Shown one piece after another: positions 14,076 to 26,893 of a DNA stretch of 34,063 bases. Numbering within the stretch: position 1 is the first letter of the stretch; each line of letters starts with the position of its first letter. The position numbers and the translations under genes were made by a program. The notes under the pieces are model-generated. The model searched no databases, had not been told where the DNA came from, and saw nothing but the letters and a program-made list of their open reading frames with translations. The stretch spans positions 1 through 34,063 of the forward strand of contig PLPI01000057.1 in assembly GCA_003159495.1 (NCBI GenBank), written 5' to 3'. The stretch comes from a candidate division FCPU426 bacterium (GTDB lineage Bacteria; Oederibacteriota; PGYV01; Palsa-1178).

Positions 14076-14697
14076 GAAAAAAATTGTAGTTGCGGTGACC
14101 GGGGCGACCAAGGCGGGTAAAAGCGAGGCCTGCGCCTATCTTCAGAAACTGTATCCGGTTATTGACGTGGATTGCCTGGCGCATGCGCTTTATAAGAAAG
14201 GCTCCTCGCTGTACGGGATATTAAAAAGAAAATACGGCCCGGTTATTATAAAAAAAGACGGAGAGATAAACAGGCGCATACTGGGCGAGATTGTTTTCGG
14301 CGACAGGCGCGACTACTGGGATTTTAACTGCCTTATTTACCCGGCGCTGATAAAAAAACTTAAAAAAGAGATAAAAAACACAGCCGGCTCCGTGGTCATA
14401 GTGGATATGGCCATTCTCTTTGAGAGCGGTTTTTATACAAGAGCCGATAAAATAATACTCATAAGGGCATCTGCCGGTGAATGGAAAAAAAGGATAGGGG
14501 AAGCGTCCGACCGCAGGTATTTTGAGAAGATTCGCAAATTCCAGGATTTTTTCCCGTCCTCGAAAAAGATTGCATTAAGCGATTATATTGTTTATAATAA
14601 TAGCACCAAAGAGGATTTATTCGGAAAAATAGACAAAATAATGGATAAAATCTTGAAAGGAGACTTATGGACCAGAAAGAACAGGAAGAGGCCATAA
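14062..14697 (+). CDS. coaE: Dephospho-CoA kinase
   Basis: A 211-residue P-loop kinase catalysing the last step of coenzyme A synthesis, phosphorylation of dephospho-CoA. The Walker A loop is GATKAGKSEA (residues about 14-23); this replaces the more common GGIGSGKST but keeps GKS. VIDVDCLAHALY corresponds to the family DAD motif, and VVIVDMAILFESGF to the conserved P-L-L-F-E region. The C-terminal LSDYIVYNNSTKEDL matches the family ending. It overlaps polA by 14 bases and the next gene by 31 bases. Identity is likely; the slightly divergent P-loop lowers confidence a little. Confidence 0.87.
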   Translation: MSAVKKKIVVAVTGATKAGKSEACAYLQKLYPVIDVDCLAHALYKKGSSLYGILKRKYGPVIIKKDGEINRRILGEIVFGDRRDYWDFNCLIYPALIKKLKKEIKNTAGSVVIVDMAILFESGFYTRADKIILIRASAGEWKKRIGEASDRRYFEKIRKFQDFFPSSKKIALSDYIVYNNSTKEDLFGKIDKIMDKILKGDLWTRKNRKRP

Positions 14698-15533
14698 ACA
14701 AGATTCTGGGCAAAATTAAGGCTCTGCCCACCCTTTCAATAGTTGTTGCCAAGGTTATCCAGGTTGTGTCAAACCCCCTTACCTCGGCGTCGGACCTTTC
14801 AAGGATAATAACCGTCGATCAGGCGCTCACTGCCAAGGTTTTAAGGCTCGCTAATTCCGCGTTTTACGGCTTCCCATTCAGAATAAAAAATATAACCCAG
14901 GCTGTGTCAATACTCGGGTTTGATACCATCAGGAACCTGGCTTTGACCGTATCGGTTTACAAGGTTTTTACCGGTGAAAATGATTCGGATTTTTCACATC
15001 AGGATTTCTGGAAACACTGCGTGGGCGTGGCCATATGCGCGTCGCTTCTCGCGAAAAAAATAAAATACCGTTCGCCCGAGGGGGCTTTTACCGCGGGGCT
15101 GCTCCACGATATAGGGAAAAATTTCTTTGAACAATTCATGCACAAGGAATACAGGGATGTGATGAAACTGGCTAAAGAGCGGAATATTTCGGTTTATGAG
15201 GCGGAGAACGAAATTATGCACATTGACCACGCGGTTGTCGGAAAAATGATGGCGGAAAAATGGAACCTGCCCCACGAGTTAAAAGCCGGGATAGCCGCGC
15301 ACCACCACCCGGAGCAGGAAACCGAGGAAAACGTAATGGCCCATATAATTAATGTGGCCGACATTATATGCAAGAAAAAATCAATAGGATTTTCCGGGGA
15401 TTACGTCATAATGCCCATATCAAAAGAGGGCAGGGAGCTCTTTTCCCTGGACGAGGCCGGCGAAGCTGAACTGATGAATTCACTTGATAAGGAACTCAAA
15501 GAGGCGGAAGCTTTTGTAAACATGCCGCAGTAA
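14667..15533 (+). CDS. HDOD domain signalling protein
   Basis: A 288-residue cytoplasmic protein made almost wholly of one HDOD domain, related to HD phosphohydrolases and found in bacterial signalling. Diagnostic segments are IKALPTLSIVVAKVIQVVSNP, DLSRIITVDQALTAKVLRLANSAFYG, ITQAVSILGFDTIRNLAL and the HD-like GLLHDIGKNFF, then GIAAHHHPE. The HD pair and later His residues are present, so metal binding is possible, but HDOD proteins are generally not proven enzymes. AAAGGAG lies just upstream of the ATG, and the gene overlaps coaE by 31 bases. It heads a block of second-messenger genes, suggesting a regulatory role. Confidence 0.9.
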   Translation: MDQKEQEEAINKILGKIKALPTLSIVVAKVIQVVSNPLTSASDLSRIITVDQALTAKVLRLANSAFYGFPFRIKNITQAVSILGFDTIRNLALTVSVYKVFTGENDSDFSHQDFWKHCVGVAICASLLAKKIKYRSPEGAFTAGLLHDIGKNFFEQFMHKEYRDVMKLAKERNISVYEAENEIMHIDHAVVGKMMAEKWNLPHELKAGIAAHHHPEQETEENVMAHIINVADIICKKKSIGFSGDYVIMPISKEGRELFSLDEAGEAELMNSLDKELKEAEAFVNMPQ

Positions 15534-15561
15534 GAAAAACGCGCCGGAGGTATTATTTAAT

Positions 15562-16719
15562 TTGAGCCAGACCGAGGAAGATATAAAGGAAATAAAAGAA
15601 TTAAAGGAATACACAAACAACCTCGAAGTTATAAACGAAGGATTAAGGCAGTCTTTCGAGGAACTCACCACATTATACCGCCTGGTCGAGATAATTGCCG
15701 AGGCGAAAACCCTTGAGCGTGTTTTAAATTCACTGCTTGACCTTGTATCCGAGATAATATCCTGCCAGGGGGCAATGCTTTTTCTTGTTGATGAGAAGAC
15801 CGGGGAAGTCGATATAGCCCTTAAGCGCAATATCAGCAGGAAAATCGAACAGAAAGTGAACCTCCAGAATAAGCAGAAAGTCATCGAGTGGACCCTTAAA
15901 AAAGGAAAAACAATCGCCATGCCGGATATCGAGGAGGATCCTTCCGACAGTGAAAAGGTCACCTTTGTCCTGGTGCCATTAATCGCGCATGACAAGCCGG
16001 TAGGATTAATCGACATAATAACCGATACGCCGGAAGGCGACATTACCACAAAAGATTTATCCCTGCTTACAATACTGGCGAAACAGGCCGCGCTTTCCAT
16101 AGAGAATGTAAAACTTTATGAGTCGATGAAAAGGGACCAGATAAGCATCATAAGGGCCCTGTCGTCCACCGTGGACGCGAAGGACCACTTTACCCTCGGA
16201 CATTCCCAGAAAGTTTCGGAATATTCCCTTAAAATTGCGGAAGCAATGGGGCTGCCGGAACGCGATGTGGAAAATATAAAATACGCGGCGCTGCTTCACG
16301 ACATAGGCAAGATAGCCATACCCGACGATATTATAAAAAAGCCGACAAAGTTGACTCCGGAGGAATTTGAAAAAGTCAGGAAACATCCGGTTATCGGCGC
16401 CATGATCATAAAAGAGATCGAATCGCTGGCGCCGATGGTGCCCATAATACTCCATCATCATGAAAGATATGACGGAAAGGGGTATCCTGACGGCATTAAG
16501 GGCGACGCAATACCGCTCGGTGCGCGCATAGTACACGTAACCGACGCGTATGATACAATGGTATCGGCCCGCGCATACCGCGACATGATACCGCAGGAGC
16601 TGGCGGTTTCGGAACTGCGCAAGAACGCCGGGACACAGTTTGATCCGGCTGTTGTAGAGGCTTTTATAACCATATTAAGAAAAAACTCAGTGGGATATGA
16701 TGGCCAAAACGGTGCTTGA
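15562..16719 (+). CDS. GAF-HD-GYP cyclic di-GMP phosphodiesterase
   Basis: A 385-residue soluble protein. After a short coiled coil (about 5-35) comes a GAF sensor domain (about 40-185, LYRLVEIIAEAKTLERVL to ALSIENVKLYE). An HD-GYP domain follows (about 195-375) with HTLGH-like HFTLGHSQKVSEYS, LLHDIGKIAIPD (His246-Asp247), HHHERYDGKGYPDG from about 298, and DAYDTMVSARAYR. All metal ligands and the GYP motif are present, so it should hydrolyse cyclic di-GMP. The start is TTG 15562, ten bases after GGAGGT. The stop overlaps the next GGDEF gene by 23 bases, pairing a degrading and a synthesising enzyme. Confidence 0.92.
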   Translation: MSQTEEDIKEIKELKEYTNNLEVINEGLRQSFEELTTLYRLVEIIAEAKTLERVLNSLLDLVSEIISCQGAMLFLVDEKTGEVDIALKRNISRKIEQKVNLQNKQKVIEWTLKKGKTIAMPDIEEDPSDSEKVTFVLVPLIAHDKPVGLIDIITDTPEGDITTKDLSLLTILAKQAALSIENVKLYESMKRDQISIIRALSSTVDAKDHFTLGHSQKVSEYSLKIAEAMGLPERDVENIKYAALLHDIGKIAIPDDIIKKPTKLTPEEFEKVRKHPVIGAMIIKEIESLAPMVPIILHHHERYDGKGYPDGIKGDAIPLGARIVHVTDAYDTMVSARAYRDMIPQELAVSELRKNAGTQFDPAVVEAFITILRKNSVGYDGQNGA

Positions 16720-18175
16720 CGCTTTTTATTACAGGAAAAACAGTTCTATCAGGTTTATAGTGATAAATTCGGCAGTGCTTATTGCCCTGACGGTGCTGCT
16801 TTACAATATTTCTTACACTTCAAGGCATGCCGCGGCTATAGCCATGGGGCTTACGCTTGTGATTTACGCTTTTTTAACCATGGGAAAAATCGGCGGCGGC
16901 ATATTCGGCCTTGTTTTCATGCTTGGCAGCATATTCCTTTCTTTTTCCGCTGAAGGAACTGCCAGGACCCCGTTTTATTTTATTGCGGTATTTTGCGCGG
17001 CATTTGTCTGGTATTTCAATGGATTAATAGACAACCTTGACGAGAGGGAACAGCATAACAATCTTATGGAAAACGAGATAGATTCCGACAGGATAGTCTC
17101 CGGCGACCGCCTGAAAAAACTTAACGACGCTATTTCCGCCAATGTGGGGAAAATAGAGAACTACAGGATGTTAAACAGGGTCGCGGAAGAGCTTCTATCC
17201 ACGCTTGACCGTAATAAAATAGTGGGCGTAATCAACAAGTACCTGGCCGGATTGATCGGAGAAAAAGAAGTCACCCCGATGCTGCTTGTAAAAAACCGCG
17301 AGTCCGACACTTTTTCACCGGCGGTAGAGCCCAAAAAGAACGAGATTTCACAGCGGGAAACGGTAAATTTGTACAAGAAGGATCCGTTTGACGAATGGAT
17401 AATAAAAAATAAATACACCCTCCTGATAAAGAACATTGACGACGATTTCAGGTTCAGGAACCTGCGCAGGGACTGGATACATTTTAAGTCCCTGATAGCA
17501 ATACCGCTTTTTGAAACAAAACGCCTCATCGGCATCCTGAAGTTTTATTCGGAAAAACAGGACGTATTTGACAACGAGGATGCCCGGCTCCTGAACTATC
17601 TCGGCGACATGTGCTCTTCGGTGGTGGAGAATTCAATGCTTTACGAGAAGACGGAAACGCTTGCCACCCAGGACGGCCTTACCGGGCTCTATATCAGGCG
17701 CTATTTTATTGAAAAGATGGATGAGGAAATGAAGCGCTCGAAACAGGCAAAATCCTCTTTCTCTTACCTGATGATTGACATTGACCATTTTAAGGACTGT
17801 AACGACAATTACGGACATTTATTCGGGGACAAGGTTTTAAAATGCCTCGGGGATTTTTTAAAGGAAAATCTGAGGGATGTCGACCTTGTGGGAAGGTACG
17901 GCGGGGAGGAATTCGCAATTGTACTGCCCAGCACGAACAGCAACGGCGCGAGGTTTGTTGCCGAGAGGCTGCGCGACGGATTTTCGAAGATGATTGTGGC
18001 TGTCGATGAAAAACAGGGCATAAAGCTTACGCTGAGCCTTGGCGGGGTGGAATTCAAAGCCGGGGACAGCCTGAAGCTCATGGAAATTATAAACAGGGCG
18101 GACAAGGCCCTCTATTATTCAAAGGAAAACGGAAGGAACAAGGTGACTTTCTGGGAGGACCTGAACGATGAATAA
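16697..18175 (+). CDS. Membrane GAF-GGDEF diguanylate cyclase with intact I-site
   Basis: A 492-residue inner-membrane protein. Residues about 15-115 form four or so transmembrane helices (VINSAVLIALTVLLYNI, AIAMGLTLVIYAFL, GLVFMLGSIFLSF, FYFIAVFCAAFVWYF). Next come a charged linker, a GAF domain (about 155-320) and a GGDEF domain from DGLTGLYIRRYF. Active-site GGEEF is at 402-406, with IDIDHFKDCNDNYGHLFGD upstream. RDVD precedes it at the I-site spacing, so unlike the other two GGDEF proteins here it should be feedback-inhibited by cyclic di-GMP. It overlaps the HD-GYP gene by 23 bases and the next GGDEF gene by 8 bases. Three codons in, a second ATG start (16700) is equally possible. Confidence 0.92.
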   Translation: MMAKTVLDAFYYRKNSSIRFIVINSAVLIALTVLLYNISYTSRHAAAIAMGLTLVIYAFLTMGKIGGGIFGLVFMLGSIFLSFSAEGTARTPFYFIAVFCAAFVWYFNGLIDNLDEREQHNNLMENEIDSDRIVSGDRLKKLNDAISANVGKIENYRMLNRVAEELLSTLDRNKIVGVINKYLAGLIGEKEVTPMLLVKNRESDTFSPAVEPKKNEISQRETVNLYKKDPFDEWIIKNKYTLLIKNIDDDFRFRNLRRDWIHFKSLIAIPLFETKRLIGILKFYSEKQDVFDNEDARLLNYLGDMCSSVVENSMLYEKTETLATQDGLTGLYIRRYFIEKMDEEMKRSKQAKSSFSYLMIDIDHFKDCNDNYGHLFGDKVLKCLGDFLKENLRDVDLVGRYGGEEFAIVLPSTNSNGARFVAERLRDGFSKMIVAVDEKQGIKLTLSLGGVEFKAGDSLKLMEIINRADKALYYSKENGRNKVTFWEDLNDE

Positions 18176-19589
18176 TAAGTCTGTCTTCCCGGCAATTCTT
18201 TTTGCGTCCACGGCTGTTTTTATAATAATATTAAACGTATGGCTGCGTTCGCCCCAGGATAACTATTCGGTGCTTTCCCTTTCAATAATCCTTCTTTTTT
18301 CCAGGAATAACATGAACTATGGAGCCCAGTTAATGTTTTTTGCCGCGGCGGTCCTTTTTACAGGCGTCCTTTTATTCCCGTTAAAACAGATAACTCCGCT
18401 TATAGCCTTGATTGCCGTCATACAGTATGCTTCCGTGTATCTTCTTACAATGCCGTTTTTGTCGCATATTGCCGGTATTGAGGAACGCAAAGCCGGGCTC
18501 GGGGAAAACAAGCGCCTGCTGGAAGCCGGCAAACAGGACAGCCTGGACGGGGCGATGCTCAAAGACGACCTTCTTGAAAAGCAGATAAAGGATATAAGGT
18601 CGCTTTATGACGCGGCAAAAGAGCTCGGGTCGTCGCTTAATCATGACGAAACAATGGAACTCACAACGGCTGTTTTGAAGAAAATAATACGCAATAATTT
18701 CAAGATATCCCCGGATGACATAACCTTTATGATAATTTTTAAGAAGGAATACGAGTATTACATTGCGCAGTCGTTCGGTTACGATGAGGAATCCATACGG
18801 GACAATGAGAAAACTTTTGTGAACGCGATCCTGAAATCGGTGGGGAAAAGCCAGGAATATATATACATCCAGGACACGTCAAAAATTCCGGGAGATGCCG
18901 GGCTTACCATGGAACTCAATAAGTGCGTAATTTACATCCCGTTTTATGTAAAAAACAAACTGCTTGGCGTGCTGTTTATTTCAGGCAGCAAGATTAATAT
19001 GTTCGATGAAAAACAGATAGAATCAATCAGGATGCTTTCAAACCAGATAGCCATTTCCCTTGAAAAGGTCCATCTGTACGAGGAGGTCGAGAAACTTTCC
19101 GAGACCGACAGCCTGACCGGGCTTTATGTCCACAGGTATTTTCAGGACAAGCTGGAAAACGAGATAAAACGCACCCAGCGTTACGGCGGAACGCTTTCGC
19201 TTGTGCTCGGCGATATAGACCATTTCAAGGTCATTAACGACACATACGGACACCTGGCCGGGGATTATATCCTGAAAACGATAGCCGTCATACTGAAAAA
19301 TCACACTTCAATAATGGATTCGGTGGCGCGTTATGGCGGCGAAGAATTTGTAATAATACTGCCGGATACGGACAAGGAAAAGGCCCATGCGAAAGCCGTC
19401 AAAATAAGAAAAGAGATAGAAAAGTACCCGTTTAAATATAAGGAAATTCAGATAAAGATAACAATGTCGATGGGCGTTGCCGCATATCCTTTGGATGCGG
19501 ACGCCAGAAGAACGCTTATTGATAAGGCCGATAAGGCGCTATACAGGGCAAAGGAAGAGGGTCGCAACAGGGTAATAAGGGCGGAATGA
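18168..19589 (+). CDS. Membrane GAF-GGDEF diguanylate cyclase, I-site lost
   Basis: A 473-residue paralogue-like neighbour of the preceding gene with the same order: about three transmembrane helices (FPAILFASTAVFIIILNVWL, LMFFAAAVLFTGVLLF, ITPLIALIAVIQYASVYLL), a helical linker, a GAF domain (about 150-300) and a GGDEF domain from DSLTGLYVHRYF. GGEEF is at 390-394 and GDIDHFKVINDTYGHLAGD is intact, so cyclase activity is expected. At the I-site SIMD stands in place of RxxD, so feedback inhibition is probably lost. It overlaps the previous gene by 8 bases. The pair probably arose by duplication, though the membrane parts now differ strongly. Confidence 0.92.
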   Translation: MNNKSVFPAILFASTAVFIIILNVWLRSPQDNYSVLSLSIILLFSRNNMNYGAQLMFFAAAVLFTGVLLFPLKQITPLIALIAVIQYASVYLLTMPFLSHIAGIEERKAGLGENKRLLEAGKQDSLDGAMLKDDLLEKQIKDIRSLYDAAKELGSSLNHDETMELTTAVLKKIIRNNFKISPDDITFMIIFKKEYEYYIAQSFGYDEESIRDNEKTFVNAILKSVGKSQEYIYIQDTSKIPGDAGLTMELNKCVIYIPFYVKNKLLGVLFISGSKINMFDEKQIESIRMLSNQIAISLEKVHLYEEVEKLSETDSLTGLYVHRYFQDKLENEIKRTQRYGGTLSLVLGDIDHFKVINDTYGHLAGDYILKTIAVILKNHTSIMDSVARYGGEEFVIILPDTDKEKAHAKAVKIRKEIEKYPFKYKEIQIKITMSMGVAAYPLDADARRTLIDKADKALYRAKEEGRNRVIRAE

Positions 19590-19615: not shown

Positions 19616-20257
19616 ATGGACAGGGAAATTGAAAGAAGGCTTGTGGAAGACGCAAAACGCAGCCCCGCGGCTTTCGGAAAATTATTTGAGGAATATTACA
19701 AACCCATTCACAGGTACGCGCTCCACCGCACTGGAAATGCCGCCGCGGCGGACGATGTAACCGCCGAGACTTTCTTCAAGGCTCTCAATAAAATATCCGG
19801 ATTTAAATGGGCGGGCGTGCCTTTTTCCGCGTGGCTTTACAGGATAGCGGGGAACGAAGTCATAAATTATTTCCGCAGGGGAGCCCGCGAACCTTCCGGT
19901 TTTGAATTAAATCCGGACGGCGTCACGCAGAGGGAACCGGCGTCAACACAGGATATGGAAAAGGAACTTCTCGAGGCCCAGGAAAAAATAGACAATTCCG
20001 CCGCGTATATCCGGGCAAAAGAAGCGCTTAAAACACTTCCGGAAAAGTACCGGGAAGTTCTCACACTGCGGTTCCTGGAGGATAAAAAAATAATGGAAAT
20101 TTGTGAAATACTGGGCAAAAACGAGGGCACGGTAAAATCACTGATATCCAGGGGGACGGCCAGGCTGAAGGTTTATTTTGAAAAAGATGCCGGAGCGCAA
20201 CCCTTACCGGGCGGCGGCGTTATAAATAATGAAAGCAATAGGAAAGGCGGATCGTGA
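19616..20257 (+). CDS. ECF-type RNA polymerase sigma factor
   Basis: A 213-residue sigma-70-family factor of the extracytoplasmic-function type. Region 2 (about 18-88) shows FGKLFEEYYKPIHRYA, DDVTAETFFKALNKI and PFSAWLYRIAGNEVINYFRR. Region 4 (about 125-180) shows ALKTLPEKYREVLTLRFLE and a helix-turn-helix IMEICEILGKNEGTVKSLISRGTARL. A short Gly/Asn-rich tail follows. GGGAG lies upstream of the ATG. It starts 27 bases after the GGDEF gene, so it may be read through from that block. The following gene, in the usual anti-sigma position, is a single-pass membrane protein, implying control by an external signal. Confidence 0.92.
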   Translation: MDREIERRLVEDAKRSPAAFGKLFEEYYKPIHRYALHRTGNAAAADDVTAETFFKALNKISGFKWAGVPFSAWLYRIAGNEVINYFRRGAREPSGFELNPDGVTQREPASTQDMEKELLEAQEKIDNSAAYIRAKEALKTLPEKYREVLTLRFLEDKKIMEICEILGKNEGTVKSLISRGTARLKVYFEKDAGAQPLPGGGVINNESNRKGGS

Positions 20258-20258
20258 T

Positions 20259-21086
20259 ATGGAAGAAAAAGATGTAATTAAAAAACTCGAAGAGGCGTGC
20301 CTTCCGGAGATAGATACTCCGAAGGGCAAATTATCGCTTAAAATGGCCCTGCTGGAAAAAGCAGCTCGGAAAAAACCATTCTGGGACGTCTTTATAAAAA
20401 GATATGTTCCATCCGCCGTGCTGGCTTTTGCCGTGGCGGTTATGACGGTTTATGTCGTTGATAATATGGACTCGGGCTCCAAGTTCAACAGGCAGGGCGG
20501 TATGTGGTCCACGTATTCCGACGCGCAGGAAGGCGGGGACTCGACAGTCTGGCCGCCGGCGCCGACAAAAAGCGGCAATGGATTTATCATGTCAAGCCCG
20601 GGATTCGGATACGCTAAATACGCGGTCCATGTAACGGGCAGGACCGGCAGCAAATTCGGTTTGAATTATAATTATCTCGGCTTTCTTGTAAGGTTCAGCG
20701 CCGAGACGGAATGCCCGGTATGCAAGGGCGTTGACATATCAAAATATACAGGCATCAGGTTTAAGATAAAGGGCAGCCTGCCTTCAGGAAAGCTAAGTTT
20801 TATTCTGCCTTACGAGTCGGGCGAATGTGACAGGGTAAATGTGACGTGCAAAAGCCTTACGGAATACGCGGACTATGAAAAGGATATAACTCCGCTGGTA
20901 ACCGGCAACTGGGCCACGGTAACGATAGATTTCAGGAATGCGTTAAAACAGCCTTCGTGGACCCCTGCTAAAAACCTGGTTAATATTGAGAAAGTGCTTC
21001 AGAATGTGCACCTTTTCAAGTGGCAGTATGAGAACGGGAACGGGTCGCTTGCCGATATCTGGCTTGCGCAGGTGGAACTTTACTGA
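20259..21086 (+). CDS. Membrane sensor in anti-sigma position with carbohydrate-binding-like domain
   Basis: About 275 residues. The cytoplasmic N-terminus (about 1-48, MEEKDVIKKLEEAC onward) is followed by one transmembrane helix (YVPSAVLAFAVAVMTVYVV). The rest is an extracytoplasmic beta-rich domain that resembles CBM11/CIA30-type sugar-binding jelly rolls (GFLVRFSAETECP, ISKYTGIRFKIKG, WATVTIDFRNAL, VHLFKWQYENGNGSLADIWLAQVELY). No zinc-binding HxxxCxxC anti-sigma motif is present, so sigma-factor binding is inferred from topology and gene order only. ATG 20259, one base after the sigma-factor stop, is chosen; ATG 20229 in frame would overlap by 29 bases. Two CxxC-like pairs may form disulphides. 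Confidence 0.72.
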   Translation: MEEKDVIKKLEEACLPEIDTPKGKLSLKMALLEKAARKKPFWDVFIKRYVPSAVLAFAVAVMTVYVVDNMDSGSKFNRQGGMWSTYSDAQEGGDSTVWPPAPTKSGNGFIMSSPGFGYAKYAVHVTGRTGSKFGLNYNYLGFLVRFSAETECPVCKGVDISKYTGIRFKIKGSLPSGKLSFILPYESGECDRVNVTCKSLTEYADYEKDITPLVTGNWATVTIDFRNALKQPSWTPAKNLVNIEKVLQNVHLFKWQYENGNGSLADIWLAQVELY

Positions 21087-21100
21087 AAAAAGATCCGGTT
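21074..21100 (+). promoter_or_regulatory. Possible ECF-type promoter before the glycoside hydrolase gene
   Basis: GGAACTT (21074-21080) and CGGTT (21096-21100) have 15 bases between them, similar to many ECF promoters. It overlaps the end of the sensor gene, and the last codons there explain part of the sequence, so chance is a real possibility. Confidence 0.2.
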
Positions 21101-21140
21101 TTAAGAAAAACGTAATATAAAATTTCAAGGAGGGATTTGC

Positions 21141-23438
21141 ATGGGAAAGTTTTTAAAGGCAGCAATGGCAGTTGTTTTCATCGCTGTGTTTGCCCTGCAG
21201 GCTTTTGCGGAAGGCGAAGACATAGCGGCAAAGCACCGGGTGACCCTGTGGAACTTTGAATCGGGTACAACGGAAGGATGGCACGGAAACGGGAAGTTCG
21301 CCAAATCATGCTCGGTTTCAAAGGAACACGCATCTGAAGGGAAGTATTCCCTTAAGGTGGACCTTACCGGTTCCAAGGACTGGAACCAGGATGTCATGGT
21401 GAACGACGGCCCGTTCGACCCGGCAGTCAACAAACTTGTGGAATTGTCGTTTGACGTTTACGTGCCGGAAACTTCAATAAAGGGGCTGGAGTACCAGGAA
21501 ATGTATCTCGTCTGTTCCAGCAAGTCAAACGCGTGGTACCAGCTGAAAAGCCCGCTTAACCCGGGCGAGAACAAGATAGTTTTCAAACTTGACAACACCA
21601 AGATAAACCAGGATATGTGGCACATATATCTTGTAACAAACAATAACCAGCCTTTCACGGGCCCGATATTCATCGACAACATGGTCGGTAGGATACTCGG
21701 CCAGCCGGGAACCATCGAGGGGCGCGTAACGGACAAGGATACGGGAGAAGCGGTCAAGGGGGCCAGGGTGGTAGTCGGCGACACGCTCATTGCCACCGAT
21801 GACGGCGGGAACTTTAAGCTTACCGTACCCGAGGACCAGTATAAAATGGTCGTAGTTGCATACGGTTACAAGGATATGAACTCGAACGTGGTTGTTTACG
21901 CCGGCCAGGACAAGAATATTGGTAATATATCCATATTTAAAATAAAGGAGCCGGCAAAGGTAGCGGTTTCAATTGATGTGGATACCAATAAGGTCATAAG
22001 GATGATAAACAAGCACGACCTTCTGGGTCAGAATATAGCGCCGTGGCACAAACCCGACGGATACAGGGACGCAGAGGCCCTGCAGAAGATGCTTCAAATC
22101 GGAGCCACTTATTTCAGGATTCCAGGCGGAGATTACGCCAACCTGTATAACTGGAAAACCGGCGATGTTTATAAATTTGACGGGACGGTGAACTGGACCC
22201 CTGAAATGAACTATATGGGCGGAATGGTCCCTTTTTTCAAGAGGATGGACAAGCTTGACAACAATACGACAGAAGTGCTTCCGACAATAAATATCCTGAC
22301 GCCGGCAAGCAAGACAATAAACCAGAGGATCGATTTTGCCATAGATTGGCTCCAGGACATGCACGATAAGGGCATCAAGTTTGAATATGTCGAGGTGGGC
22401 AACGAGCTTGACAACAAACCGGACGTTCCCGGACCCGCCAGGGCAAAGGAAGGCAAATCAGTCCTTGATTCACCGACCGATATGAAAAACACGCACTGGT
22501 GGACAAAGATTGACAATTACTGCATGGTATTCAACCAGGCGGCTTACAAGATTAAATTGTTCGCAAAAAAGAACGGTATGAACCTGAAAGTCATGGGGCC
22601 GGTGCCGATGCAGCCCATGAATCAGCAGAGGCTCGAAGGCGAGCCGTGGAAGGCCACGGGAAAATCGCCGTACTGGGTTGAGGAGTTCCTGAAGAAATCA
22701 GGGCTCTACATGGATACGATATCCATACATGAATACCCGTTCTGGGCGAATACGGACGCCAGACAGCTGCTCTCAAAACCGCAGACAACATGGCCGGTTT
22801 ACATGCCGAAATTCAGGGAATGGATAAAGAAATACATAACATCAAAACAGCCCAACAAGCACGTTGACATTGCCCTTACGGAATGGAACTCCGGGGATGA
22901 AAACGTGATGACGGCACTGATCGAGAACGGGCTTTTCTGCGCCGACTACCTTGGTTCGTTCATGAAATGCGGCGGGAACCTCGCGTTCTGTTGGGACCTT
23001 TACACGCAGAAACCGGGACTCGGAGGCGGACACGGCGTCATGGACGACGAGAACGACCCGACGAATAAATATTCCCAGAGGTCGCATTTCTGGGCCTTTG
23101 ATATGATCAACAACGATTTCGGGACAAAGATGGTGGAATGCTCGTCGACAAACCCGGAACTCTCGGTTTACGCCGCGATGATAGATGATTCGACTGTTTC
23201 CATCATGGCGATAAACAAGACAAAACTCTCGATTTCAAGCGCAAAGATCAATATTAACGGAAAGATAGTATCGGGGTCGGCAACGGCTTACCAGCTTTCC
23301 AACAAGGAATATGTATGGTCAAAGGAGCTCTACAGGCCGATAGTGAATTCGGGCCCGTCGAAACTCGACGTGAACCTGGACAACGGCATTTACAATTTCC
23401 CGCCGTATTCGGTTACGATACTGCAGGTAAAGATATAA
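21141..23438 (+). CDS. Secreted clan GH-A glycoside hydrolase with binding domains
   Basis: 765 residues, exported (signal peptide 1-23, ending QAFA|EGE). GGAGGG precedes the ATG. Residues about 33-187 form a jelly-roll binding-like domain (VTLWNFESGTTEGWHGNGKF onwards, ending FIDNMVGRI). Residues about 190-268 match a carboxypeptidase-regulatory-like fold (GTIEGRVTDKDTGEAVKGARV). A TIM barrel from about 285 to 665 has the paired catalytic Glu of clan A: VGNEL, Glu422 (acid/base), and ALTEWNSGD, Glu581 (nucleophile), with HEYPF between them. A C-terminal beta domain ends the protein. It resembles GH51/GH44-type arabinofuranosidases and glucanases; the substrate cannot be told from sequence. 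Its gene follows the sigma factor and sensor and ends at a strong terminator. Confidence 0.82.
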   Translation: MGKFLKAAMAVVFIAVFALQAFAEGEDIAAKHRVTLWNFESGTTEGWHGNGKFAKSCSVSKEHASEGKYSLKVDLTGSKDWNQDVMVNDGPFDPAVNKLVELSFDVYVPETSIKGLEYQEMYLVCSSKSNAWYQLKSPLNPGENKIVFKLDNTKINQDMWHIYLVTNNNQPFTGPIFIDNMVGRILGQPGTIEGRVTDKDTGEAVKGARVVVGDTLIATDDGGNFKLTVPEDQYKMVVVAYGYKDMNSNVVVYAGQDKNIGNISIFKIKEPAKVAVSIDVDTNKVIRMINKHDLLGQNIAPWHKPDGYRDAEALQKMLQIGATYFRIPGGDYANLYNWKTGDVYKFDGTVNWTPEMNYMGGMVPFFKRMDKLDNNTTEVLPTINILTPASKTINQRIDFAIDWLQDMHDKGIKFEYVEVGNELDNKPDVPGPARAKEGKSVLDSPTDMKNTHWWTKIDNYCMVFNQAAYKIKLFAKKNGMNLKVMGPVPMQPMNQQRLEGEPWKATGKSPYWVEEFLKKSGLYMDTISIHEYPFWANTDARQLLSKPQTTWPVYMPKFREWIKKYITSKQPNKHVDIALTEWNSGDENVMTALIENGLFCADYLGSFMKCGGNLAFCWDLYTQKPGLGGGHGVMDDENDPTNKYSQRSHFWAFDMINNDFGTKMVECSSTNPELSVYAAMIDDSTVSIMAINKTKLSISSAKININGKIVSGSATAYQLSNKEYVWSKELYRPIVNSGPSKLDVNLDNGIYNFPPYSVTILQVKI

Positions 23439-23455
23439 GAAACAGGTTTGATATG

Positions 23456-23488
23456 AAAAGGGCGGCCGAAAGGCCGCTCTTTTTTTTT
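23456..23488 (+). terminator. Rho-independent terminator after the glycoside hydrolase gene
   Basis: GGGCGGCC pairs with GGCCGCTC around a GAAA loop (23460-23479, one G-U pair) and a run of T follows to 23488. It closes the sigma-sensor-hydrolase region and marks the left edge of the AT-rich island. Confidence 0.9.
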
Positions 23489-23654: not shown

Positions 23655-24245
23655 ATGAATTTGGCACTTTATTCGTACGGATATCAGAATCCTGTTAGAA
23701 TGATAGATCCAGATGGAAATGAGGTTAACCCGGACAATCCAGATTATTGGGGAAGTCATGGTAATGAATATCATCCGGCTCCTGAAATAAAAATGCCAAA
23801 CAATGACTTAGGTAATCCAAGCAATGGTGGTACGCAATTGCCGGGATATGCGGTACAATATCAAGAAGGAAATCGTGATAAATTAATAGGAGCAACTTTA
23901 TCTTTGGGCGTTGATATTGCAAGCGAGTTTAGTAAAAAAATTAATAGCATTATATCAAATGTAATAACTCCAGCCTTGGATCTTCAGAGTGGGGCGTCAA
24001 TGCTTGATGTTGGAAAAAATCGTTTATTAGGTATGATTCCAGGTTATAGTATTGGAAAGGATCTGATTGATATTGGAGCAAATTCTGGAAGATTTGTCCC
24101 TTATATGGGACCAACGGCCACGCCAGATACAAATTCTTACTGGAACACAGGTTCTTATGATTATCCTGCAACGGCTACGATTGGTTTTACTCCTGTAACA
24201 CCAGCATTTACCGTAACACCAAATAGAAATAATATTAGATATTAA
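23655..24245 (+). CDS. Orphan Rhs C-terminal tip, first copy
   Basis: A 196-residue reading frame whose first residues are the end of an Rhs/YD-repeat core: NLALYSYGYQNPVRMIDPDGN, preceded in frame by GTVEKGVYNS from about 23625. The rest of the large Rhs shell is missing, so this is a displaced tip. After DPDGN comes a variable region without a toxin motif that I can name: acidic Asn/Pro-rich, then hydrophobic helices (LIGATLSLGVDIASEF, IPGYSIGKDLIDIGANSG) and a Thr/Pro-rich tail. In Rhs systems this region is the toxin; here no such activity can be shown. Codon use is AT-rich. The following gene starts after 21 bases and sits in the immunity position. It may not be expressed as a separate protein. 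Confidence 0.6.
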   Translation: MNLALYSYGYQNPVRMIDPDGNEVNPDNPDYWGSHGNEYHPAPEIKMPNNDLGNPSNGGTQLPGYAVQYQEGNRDKLIGATLSLGVDIASEFSKKINSIISNVITPALDLQSGASMLDVGKNRLLGMIPGYSIGKDLIDIGANSGRFVPYMGPTATPDTNSYWNTGSYDYPATATIGFTPVTPAFTVTPNRNNIRY

Positions 24246-25232: not shown

Positions 25233-25334
25233 AAAAAATGGATTCGGAATTTTTTTTCGATTTTGTCAGCAAAGTGCGAAGGAGTTGTGTGCAATTTCCA
25301 GCCGTTTGCCTGATTCTTGCTCCTTTGCCCTTGC
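25233..25334. other. Gap between repeat protein and second Rhs tip
   Basis: About 100 bases, more GC-rich in its right half than the surrounding island. The Rhs homology does not extend into it; the frame upstream of GTVGKGVY closes at a stop at 25311-25313. It may be residue of another sequence joined to the second tip. Confidence 0.4.
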
Positions 25335-25985
25335 GGTACTGTCGGAAAAGGGGTATATGATTCGGAGAATTTAGGGCTTTATTCTTATGGACATCAAAAT
25401 CCTGTAAGACTGGTTGATCCGGATGGAAATGCGCCTGATCCATTTGAAATTATTTGTGGTACAGTTGCAGGCGGAGTTGCAGGTGGAGTTGGAGAAATGT
25501 TTGACCATGAGAAAGGTGAAGGCATTAATTGGAAAAATGTGGGTGCTGGTGTAATTGCTGGCGGAGTTGGGGGAGCGGCTTTGGGGGCATCATGGAATCC
25601 AATGCTTGCTGGAGCAGCTCAAGGAGTAATTCTTGAGGGACTTAAAGAAAAATTTAATAATAAACCATTAAATCCTATTGAAATAGGAAAAAATGCCGGC
25701 ATAGGATTTATTTTGGGTGGAATTACAAGCTTAATTCCATTTGACTCGGGTGATATATTAAGTGATATTGTTTCATCAGGAACTAAGGCAGGCTTTGTGG
25801 ATATTGGTATTAAAGGATTTACGTTAGCAGGAAGCATTGGGCTAGATACTGTGGAATCAAGTATAATTGATGTAGATAAAATAACTGAATCCATGAAACA
25901 AGATGTAAATAATTTGTCGTGGGCAACATCTATAATACTTAATCAAAAAGGAAACAATGAGAATGAACAAACAAACAATAAATAG
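25317..25985 (+). CDS. Orphan Rhs C-terminal tip, second copy
   Basis: A frame of up to 222 residues, opening at TTG 25317 without a Shine-Dalgarno. The Rhs part is GTVGKGVYDSENLGLYSYGHQ then NPVRLVDPDGN, closely similar to the first copy. After DPDGN the sequence is unrelated to the first tip: a Gly-rich stretch (GTVAGGVAGGVGEM, GVIAGGVGGAALGA) and further hydrophobic segments (GIGFILGGITSLIPF). Such Gly-rich hydrophobic segments are seen in the pre-toxin regions of polymorphic toxins, but no catalytic motif is recognised. It overlaps the next gene by 29 bases. Start and expression are uncertain, because it looks like a fragment detached from a full Rhs gene. Confidence 0.55.
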   Translation: MLLCPCGTVGKGVYDSENLGLYSYGHQNPVRLVDPDGNAPDPFEIICGTVAGGVAGGVGEMFDHEKGEGINWKNVGAGVIAGGVGGAALGASWNPMLAGAAQGVILEGLKEKFNNKPLNPIEIGKNAGIGFILGGITSLIPFDSGDILSDIVSSGTKAGFVDIGIKGFTLAGSIGLDTVESSIIDVDKITESMKQDVNNLSWATSIILNQKGNNENEQTNNK

Positions 25986-26502
25986 GCCAATAATAGTTAA
26001 AGCACAGATTGGATATTATATTATTTTTTTACCTATTTTATGTTTCTTTTTAATAGATGAGATTATTAGCTTATGTAAAGGCAACAGCCCAAATATACTA
26101 AATGATATTTTAGGCACGGCAATGGTGAGCTTGCCACTTATTTTAATTTTAATAGGCCTTTCGCGAGTATATTTAAAGATTGAAAATGGATATTTAAAAT
26201 ATCGATATATGATAGGCAAAGAAAAAAGCATAAAGATAGAAGAGGTTGAAACTTCGTATTTTGAGGTGCTCTCAAGGGCTAAAAATGGATTTGTAAGATG
26301 GGTGATAAGGTCAAAGGGAATAATGCATGATTTTTATATAAACCCAACACTATTTACACCAAAGGACCGTGCAAAAATAATGGTATATTTGCCCATGAAA
26401 GAAGTTGAGAGTACTACAGCGGTTGGAAATTCCCTTAGAAAATGGCTTTTAAATAATTCAAATTATTATTTAAAAGAAAGAAAAAAGGATAATGAAAAAT
26501 GA
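25957..26502 (+). CDS. Small membrane protein with PH-like domain, possible partner of the second Rhs tip
   Basis: A 181-residue protein with two transmembrane helices near the N-terminus (about 18-40, IGYYIIFLPILCFFLIDEII; about 50-70, TAMVSLPLILILIGLSRVYL). A cytoplasmic beta-rich region follows (LKIENGYLKYRYMIGKEKSIKIEEV, FVRWVIRSKGIMHDFYI), resembling bacterial PH-like membrane domains. It starts inside the Rhs tip frame (29-base overlap) behind AAAGGA, and overlaps the transposase fragment by 11 bases. Two ATG codons (25957, 25963) are possible starts. The position after a toxin tip fits an immunity gene, but no known immunity family is recognised. Confidence 0.62.
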   Translation: MRMNKQTINRPIIVKAQIGYYIIFLPILCFFLIDEIISLCKGNSPNILNDILGTAMVSLPLILILIGLSRVYLKIENGYLKYRYMIGKEKSIKIEEVETSYFEVLSRAKNGFVRWVIRSKGIMHDFYINPTLFTPKDRAKIMVYLPMKEVESTTAVGNSLRKWLLNNSNYYLKERKKDNEK

Positions 26503-26893
26503 TAAGGAGGCTCTTGTGATTCGAAAAAGCACTAAACAAAGCTCGTTCCTTGACGCTGACTACATCTGCGAGCGCCTTGTCCCGCAGGACAGCTTTTATC
26601 GGAAGTTCAAGGAGCTCGTAACTCCGCTAATAAAGGACGAGCATTTTGAGCATATGTACTGCGAGGACAACGGCCGGCCGGCGATATCACCCGCTATGCT
26701 TGCCTGTGCCTGTATACTCCAGTTCTACCGTGGGCTTTTCGACAGGGAAATGGAATATGCCTGCTCATTTGATATTTGTATTAAGCATGCGCTTGGCCTT
26801 GAGATAGATGAACGGCCTTTTGACCATTCAACACTCGGAAATTTTAGACAGAGACTGCTTGAACATGGCCAAGAAACGAAAATAATTTGTTAA
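26492..26893 (+). pseudogene. Truncated IS1182-family transposase
   Basis: A 133-residue fragment with the N-terminal domain of IS1182-like (DUF772) transposases: SSFLDADYICERLVPQDSFYRKF, ARPAISPAMLACACILQFYRG-type sequence (GRPAISPAMLAC), and IDERPFDHSTLGNFRQRLLEHG. The catalytic DDE domain, which should follow, is absent; the frame runs into ETKIIC and stops. No matching C-terminal part is recognised in 26894-27110. GGAGG lies within the start of the frame, near 26505. It is a remnant of an insertion sequence and cannot transpose itself. Confidence 0.8.

Follow-up and report, generated by a model that had tools for sequence, protein, structure and literature searches.

A likely autoregulated ECF sigma factor and carbohydrate-binding membrane sensor system for polysaccharide degradation in Goldiibacteriota

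In Clostridium thermocellum, the sigma factor sigma24C is paired with Rsi24C, a membrane anti-sigma factor whose non-catalytic GH5 domain binds crystalline cellulose (PMC3990059, PMC3526467), and the SigI/RsgI pairs of the same bacterium combine a membrane sensor of the carbohydrate-binding module (CBM) type with an autoregulated sigma factor and a regulon of glycoside hydrolases (GHs) (PMC6056542, PMC3990059). In diderm hosts, extracytoplasmic function (ECF) sigma/anti-sigma systems of Bacteroides and Cytophaga hutchinsonii serve the use of glycans and cellulose, those of Bacteroides frequently regulating TonB-dependent transporters (PMC10766802). Here, we describe a locus in a member of the Goldiibacteriota (Goldbacteria) in which the gene for an ECF sigma factor is followed by that for a single-pass membrane protein with a CBM-like outer domain (hereafter the sensor) and by that for a secreted hydrolase. 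The locus lies in a stretch of 34,063 nucleotides, the window, which is contig C136 of the 3.05 Mb draft genome. We consider it likely that the genes encode an autoregulated ECF sigma/CBM-sensor anti-sigma system for polysaccharide degradation; comparison among genomes supports the gene unit, the domain fold, the modules held in common with cellulases, the promoter element with its enrichment, and the joint absence of sigma, sensor and element in two relatives. The features of the locus are as follows.

19616..20257, + strand: ECF sigma factor (sigma2 and sigma4 domains, BldN/SigW-like), 213 aa; orthologues in 9 other genomes of the order.
20197..20224, + strand: predicted ECF-type promoter element, GCAAC-N17-GTTATA, inside the sigma gene at its 3' end, 34 bp 5' of the sensor start; the same kind of element lies upstream of all 19 sensor genes of the two paralogous sets described below.
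20259..21086, + strand: CBM-type membrane protein, predicted anti-sigma factor/sensor, 275 aa, start ATG at 20259.
20259..20390, + strand: cytoplasmic segment of the sensor, residues 1-44, predicted sigma-binding part; predicted helices 3-12 and 21-37, without zinc motif.
20391..20444, + strand: transmembrane helix of the sensor, residues 45-62, from the AlphaFold model; hydrophobic in 19/19 relatives.
20466..21083, + strand: CBM11/CIA30-like outer domain of the sensor, residues about 70-275, from the model and Foldseek; C152, C155, C190 and C197 invariant in type A sensors.
21141..23438, + strand: secreted GH-A-type glycoside hydrolase, 765 aa, with signal peptide, CBM_4_9-like domain, CarboxypepD_reg domain and GH44/GH51-related catalytic domain.
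23462..23488, + strand: probable operon terminator, a G+C-rich hairpin followed by a T run.
14667..19589, + strand: upstream neighbours, namely HDOD, HD-GYP and two GGDEF genes, in an order-wide conserved arrangement as far as contigs reach, retained in two genomes without sigma and sensor.

A sequence-only reading of the window had described an ECF sigma gene, a one-base gap, a single-pass membrane protein and a secreted hydrolase in a row, and the open reading frames bear this out. The three genes adjoin in 10 genomes of the taxonomic order, in the arrangement (HDOD)-HD-GYP-GGDEF-GGDEF-sigma-sensor-hydrolase to the extent that the contigs cover it, and this synteny places the row far from chance. 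A paralogous set made up of a sigma gene, a sensor gene and a gene for a secreted lone domain is found in 9 genomes, in one of which the sigma gene is missing as the contig ends. Window-type sensors are termed type A (n = 10 genomes) and those of the paralogous set type B (n = 9), 19 sensors together; in every pair the sensor gene directly follows the sigma gene. In two other genomes of the same order (G040 and G041), the HDOD-HDGYP-GGDEF-GGDEF-hydrolase row is intact and exactly the sigma and sensor genes are gone (L212:1153-3763, L213:1327-3757); the paralogous set is absent too. Trees of the hydrolase and of neighbouring genes place the G040/G041 family inside or beside the sensor-bearing families with moderate support, so that loss of the pair is the simpler reading and both genomes would represent a natural deletion of it. 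That the neighbouring genes are independent, with no regulatory relation, is extremely improbable given the order-wide synteny, the paralogous second set, the common promoter element and the joint absence.

As judged from its sequence, the window sigma factor is an ECF sigma factor consisting of sigma2 and sigma4 domains only (Pfam Sigma70_r2, 1.5e-17; Sigma70_r4_2, 2.9e-15; both above cut-off). Its top NCBIfam match is TIGR02952, the BldN family, at 124.5 bits, below the curated cut-off of 206, and its closest PDB relatives include SigW and, as the best, 6dxo (BldN). Since types A and B are not cleanly separated in the sigma tree, it is position only that assigns each sigma factor to its cognate sensor. 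Sigma24C is likewise an ECF sigma factor, as its name implies, and sigma24C/Rsi24C is by analogy the nearest functional precedent: in both cases a sigma-24-type gene adjoins that of a membrane protein, the known or predicted anti-sigma factor, with an outer domain known or predicted to recognize carbohydrate. This is a likeness of architecture; the outer domain of Rsi24C is GH5-derived and its host Gram-positive, whereas the window sensor is CBM11-like and Pfam found no GH5 match in the 19 sensor relatives. With SigI/RsgI the locus would share the CBM-type membrane sensor, the autoregulated sigma factor and a glycoside-hydrolase regulon, which is predicted here. SigI, however, has a SigI-C domain and no sigma4, whereas the window protein is a two-domain ECF sigma factor with Sigma70_r4_2, and RsgI has an N-terminal domain of its own where the window sensor has a short helical segment (no Pfam match to the RsgI domain in the 19 sensor relatives). 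Membership in the SigI/RsgI family is thus excluded by the presence of sigma4 and the lack of the RsgI N-terminal domain. The hosts differ as well, RsgI residing in a Gram-positive cell while the window sensor domain would face a periplasm. In its probably diderm host and its predicted control of carbohydrate-degrading genes, the locus resembles the Bacteroides and Cytophaga systems, but here the membrane protein itself has a CBM fold.

In the AlphaFold model of the window sensor, two short N-terminal helices (3-12 and 21-37) precede a hydrophobic helix (45-62), and the outer domain is a beta-sandwich modelled with confidence. A sensor profile found no match in the PDB by sequence, and a comparison of folds was therefore needed: Foldseek against the PDB returned C. 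thermocellum CBM11 first (1v0a, 2.1e-7; 6r3m, 2.7e-7), with NDUFAF1/CIA30 (7zkq, 3e-7) and CBM30 among the later matches. The window sensor sequence itself stays below the Pfam cut-off for CBM11/CIA30, and a weak CBM_11 match was obtained for 3 of the 19 relatives (best 0.0018). In the same genome, homologous domains occur as modules on two GH8 enzymes, one GH9 enzyme and one polysaccharide-deacetylase-type protein; the GH-borne modules exceed the CIA30 cut-off and in part also the CBM_11 cut-off. From the modelled fold and these modules, the outer domain is assigned to the CBM11/CIA30 superfamily, the jelly roll proposed in the sequence-only reading, and the sensor therefore carries the same kind of domain as the host's cellulases.

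Four cysteines of this domain (C152, C155, C190 and C197, including a CPxC motif) are invariant in 10/10 type A sensors, and type B sensors have CPxC and one further cysteine. The secreted lone-domain proteins encoded at the second locus lack the motif, as does the GH8 module protein examined, but it is present in two secreted relatives (G040/G041). A disulfide or metal loop tied to sensing is possible. Relatives of the outer domain outside the order (Firestonebacteria, Myxococcales and other members of the phylum) had no adjoining sigma gene on the short stretches examined, and a search of viral contigs found no relative. The secreted protein encoded after the paralogous pair (L009:7361-7999, - strand, plus eight orthologues) consists of a sensor-type domain and a signal peptide only; it is possibly a soluble decoy or a sugar carrier.

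The regulatory side of the locus is marked by a GCAAC-(17-18)-RTTATA-like element, which lies upstream of 10/10 type A and 9/9 type B sensor genes and of most type B sigma genes. Across the sensor upstream regions GCAAC does not vary, and the second half does so slightly. The element falls in non-coding intergenic DNA in several type A genomes, which argues for constraint on the DNA rather than on protein coding; its halves have the form of the -35 (GCAAC) and -10 (RTTATA) parts of ECF promoters. When nine sensor-bearing genomes (23.1 Mb) were scanned with the tight pattern GCAACC-N-RTTATA, 22 exact sites were found (0.95/Mb), as compared with 3 for the reversed pattern used as control and with 6 sites in 20 sensor-less genomes of the phylum (60.6 Mb, 0.10/Mb), a difference in density of approximately 10-fold. 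The two genomes of the order without sensors (G040, G041) had no sites. Ten of the 22 lie at the sensor loci; as these had served to define the pattern, they were set aside for the enrichment test, leaving 12 against 2.3 expected (Poisson 5e-6). Eleven of these 12 are directly 5' of genes for secreted, polysaccharide-related proteins or of an orthologue of such a gene, although for two of the 11 assignments (G037:C41, G037:C70) the contig ends or the frame is broken; the genes encode GH9, GH44, a lipoprotein whose gene precedes GH3 and a GH43-like frame, a GH42-like protein, and CBM4_9/CIA30-bearing enzymes. Large secreted proteins behind predicted sites (L154:850-4653 and L157:2009-4996, both - strand) have ends that weakly match the type IX secretion sorting tails CHU_C and Por_Secre_tail. 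In the window's own genome the strict pattern had no exact match, a loose pattern gave 9 matches (control, 4) and a two-mismatch pattern 36 (control, 20); these scans do not discriminate, and the case for a regulon therefore rests on the relatives. Fewer targets can be supported in the own genome: apart from the two sensor loci, they are a secreted protein encoded next to the GH8 genes and an epimerase-like protein that is also secreted.

These targets bear on what the sensor might recognize. Mixed-linkage glucan is also made by some bacteria. CBM11 binds this glucan (6r3m), the hydrolase family is widespread in the phylum, and the locus is linked throughout to two GGDEF genes, one HD-GYP and one HDOD gene, all of which would suit a sensor for an exopolysaccharide or envelope glycan that the cell itself makes under cyclic di-GMP (c-di-GMP) control, with the hydrolase remodelling it, rather than for foraged plant glucan. 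We regard this as very unlikely, as the homologous domains are borne by GH8 and GH9 enzymes, GH9, GH44 and a GH3 operon are among the predicted targets, and cellulose degradation and abundant CBM11 characterize the phylum: a 2019 paper described Goldbacteria as cellulose degraders with CBM11 as the most abundant binding module and with GH5, 8, 9 and 44 cellulases, and did not discuss regulation (PMC7031533). Since the outer part of the sensor resembles in build the cellulose-binding parts of the host's own enzymes and the switch sites stand before polysaccharide-digesting genes, the pair probably detects plant sugars and switches digestion on. The conserved HDOD, HD-GYP and GGDEF genes upstream of sigma (14667-19589) may link the switch to c-di-GMP.

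A role of the sensor as an anti-sigma factor is suggested by its position, by its predicted autoregulation through the common element and by the two-helix N-terminus of both paralogues. Six other ECF genes of the same genome adjoin genes for zinc-type anti-sigma factors (HxxxCxxC), and at this locus the CBM protein holds that place. The sequence-only reading had noted that the sensor lacks a zinc anti-sigma domain, and indeed no Hx3Cx2C motif occurs in the N-terminal segment of any of the 19 relatives. About 44% of class I anti-sigma domains are without zinc, so this absence is not remarkable. RsbN, the class III partner of BldN, and CnrY, the class II partner of CnrH, have short zinc-free helical cytoplasmic segments of this kind (PMC7406223, PMC8103513), a likeness in kind only, with no sequence similarity found. 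It extends to the sigma factor, whose best solved relative is BldN and whose fused model, described next, is CnrH-like. To our knowledge, neither RsbN nor CnrY carries a CBM sensor.

Contact between the N-terminus and sigma, as proposed in the sequence-only reading, was modelled as a single chain of a relative (G002), in which sigma was read through stop codons into the sensor, with alignment rows from the order only. Confidence in the helix region was about 81-87 in this chain versus 59-65 in the window sensor alone (two different orthologues are compared), and about 42 in the linker. On superposition, the modelled sigma fits the SigW/RsiW and CnrH/CnrY complexes best, whereas its fit to polymerase-bound sigma factors is poor; free ECF sigma factors can be modelled closed too. 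The rise in confidence and the CnrH-like arrangement agree with the proposed contact, for which the model is suggestive only.

A different role for the membrane protein would be that of a binding protein which is controlled by sigma, holds sugars or anchors the cell to its substrate, and has no anti-sigma function, sigma itself being regulated through its abundance or by the c-di-GMP proteins encoded next to it. The element before the sensor gene, which makes the sensor itself a target, the lack of any match of its N-terminus to an anti-sigma family, and the conserved GGDEF and HD-GYP neighbours would all fit such a protein. Anti-sigma genes are, however, typically both co-transcribed with their sigma gene and themselves under its control, and the sensor stands where zinc-type anti-sigma genes stand at six other ECF loci. 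In addition, the two-helix N-terminus is kept in both paralogues, where it would be superfluous for a pure anchor, and in the lone secreted versions a signal peptide takes its place. We therefore consider a pure binding protein unlikely.

In the proposed anti-sigma mechanism, the sensor would hold sigma through its short helical cytoplasmic segment as long as ligand is absent. Contact of the CBM11-like outer domain with a periplasmic glucan, or an oligosaccharide of it, would bring about release of sigma, via conformational change or proteolysis, and free sigma would direct RNA polymerase to GCAACC-N-RTTATA promoters. The promoter in the end of the sigma gene would drive the sensor, restoring the block, together with the secreted hydrolase, and the other promoters would drive secreted GHs elsewhere in the genome. 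Sigma binding, the identity of the ligand and the mechanism of release are the parts that we infer. The genome encodes an Omp85/BamA-like protein, which implies an outer membrane and hence a probably diderm cell in which the sensor domain probably faces the periplasm; the sensor would then probably see oligosaccharides rather than fibres, unlike in clostridia.

Several observations weigh against this mechanism. The N-terminus, of only about 44 residues, matches no anti-sigma domain by sequence, and its profile gave only meaningless small-GTPase and FliL matches in the PDB; the complex model is a fused orthologue chain without inter-domain error estimates; the own genome has few convincing sites besides the two sensor loci; and an outer membrane would keep polymers from the sensor. 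Genomes without the sigma-sensor pair have kept the downstream hydrolase too, and in the more distant Goldiibacteriota G031 and G026 it is preceded by a LacI-type gene (L214:3845-7917, L216:3539-7494). The LacI-type gene in place of the pair may represent a change of regulator for one enzyme. On balance, the locus is real and conserved, and it probably functions as a polysaccharide-responsive ECF switch. The sequence-only reading saw in it an independent system with the logic of SigI/RsgI. That logic gains strong comparative backing from the synteny, the promoter element before every sensor gene and before secreted GH genes, the joint absence and the location of the sensor gene where anti-sigma genes stand; C. 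thermocellum itself offers an ECF-type precedent, zinc-less anti-sigma domains are common, and the probably diderm host sets the system apart from the clostridial case. More tentatively, the sensors could represent a class of ECF anti-sigma factors confined to one lineage of a diderm phylum, with the four-cysteine CBM11 domain as a direct periplasmic sugar receptor and a minimal two-helix sigma-binding segment, in which two paralogous pairs use one promoter code and one pair releases a soluble copy of the sensor domain as feedback or relay.

The hydrolase had been read as a secreted clan GH-A enzyme with its own binding domain. It has a signal peptide, a CBM_4_9-like domain just under threshold (25.8 bits, cut-off 25.9), a CarboxypepD_reg domain, and Glu422 and Glu581, which are invariant in 9 orthologues. 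No Pfam GH family scored above cut-off; a profile of the enzyme matches GH44 CelM2 (1.2e-9, over residues 519-724) and GH51 (2e-4), and the catalytic domain is predicted to be GH44/GH51-related and of the GH-A type. Elsewhere in this genome, the two GH8 cellulase genes lie directly downstream of another ECF sigma gene and its zinc-type anti-sigma gene (L010:13415-15052, - strand). Further along the window, two open reading frames (23655-24245 and 25317-25985) have alike starts (LYSYGYQNPVRMIDPDGN / LYSYGHQNPVRLVDPDGN), resemble the ends of RHS/YD-repeat proteins and differ in their tails, and a third (26492-26893) resembles the start of a transposase.

For the little-explored question of when uncultured cellulose-degrading phyla make their enzymes, this locus offers a specific candidate regulator together with its promoter code and predicted targets. 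It also suggests that an enzyme-type sugar-binding domain and an anti-sigma segment have been joined more than once in bacteria.

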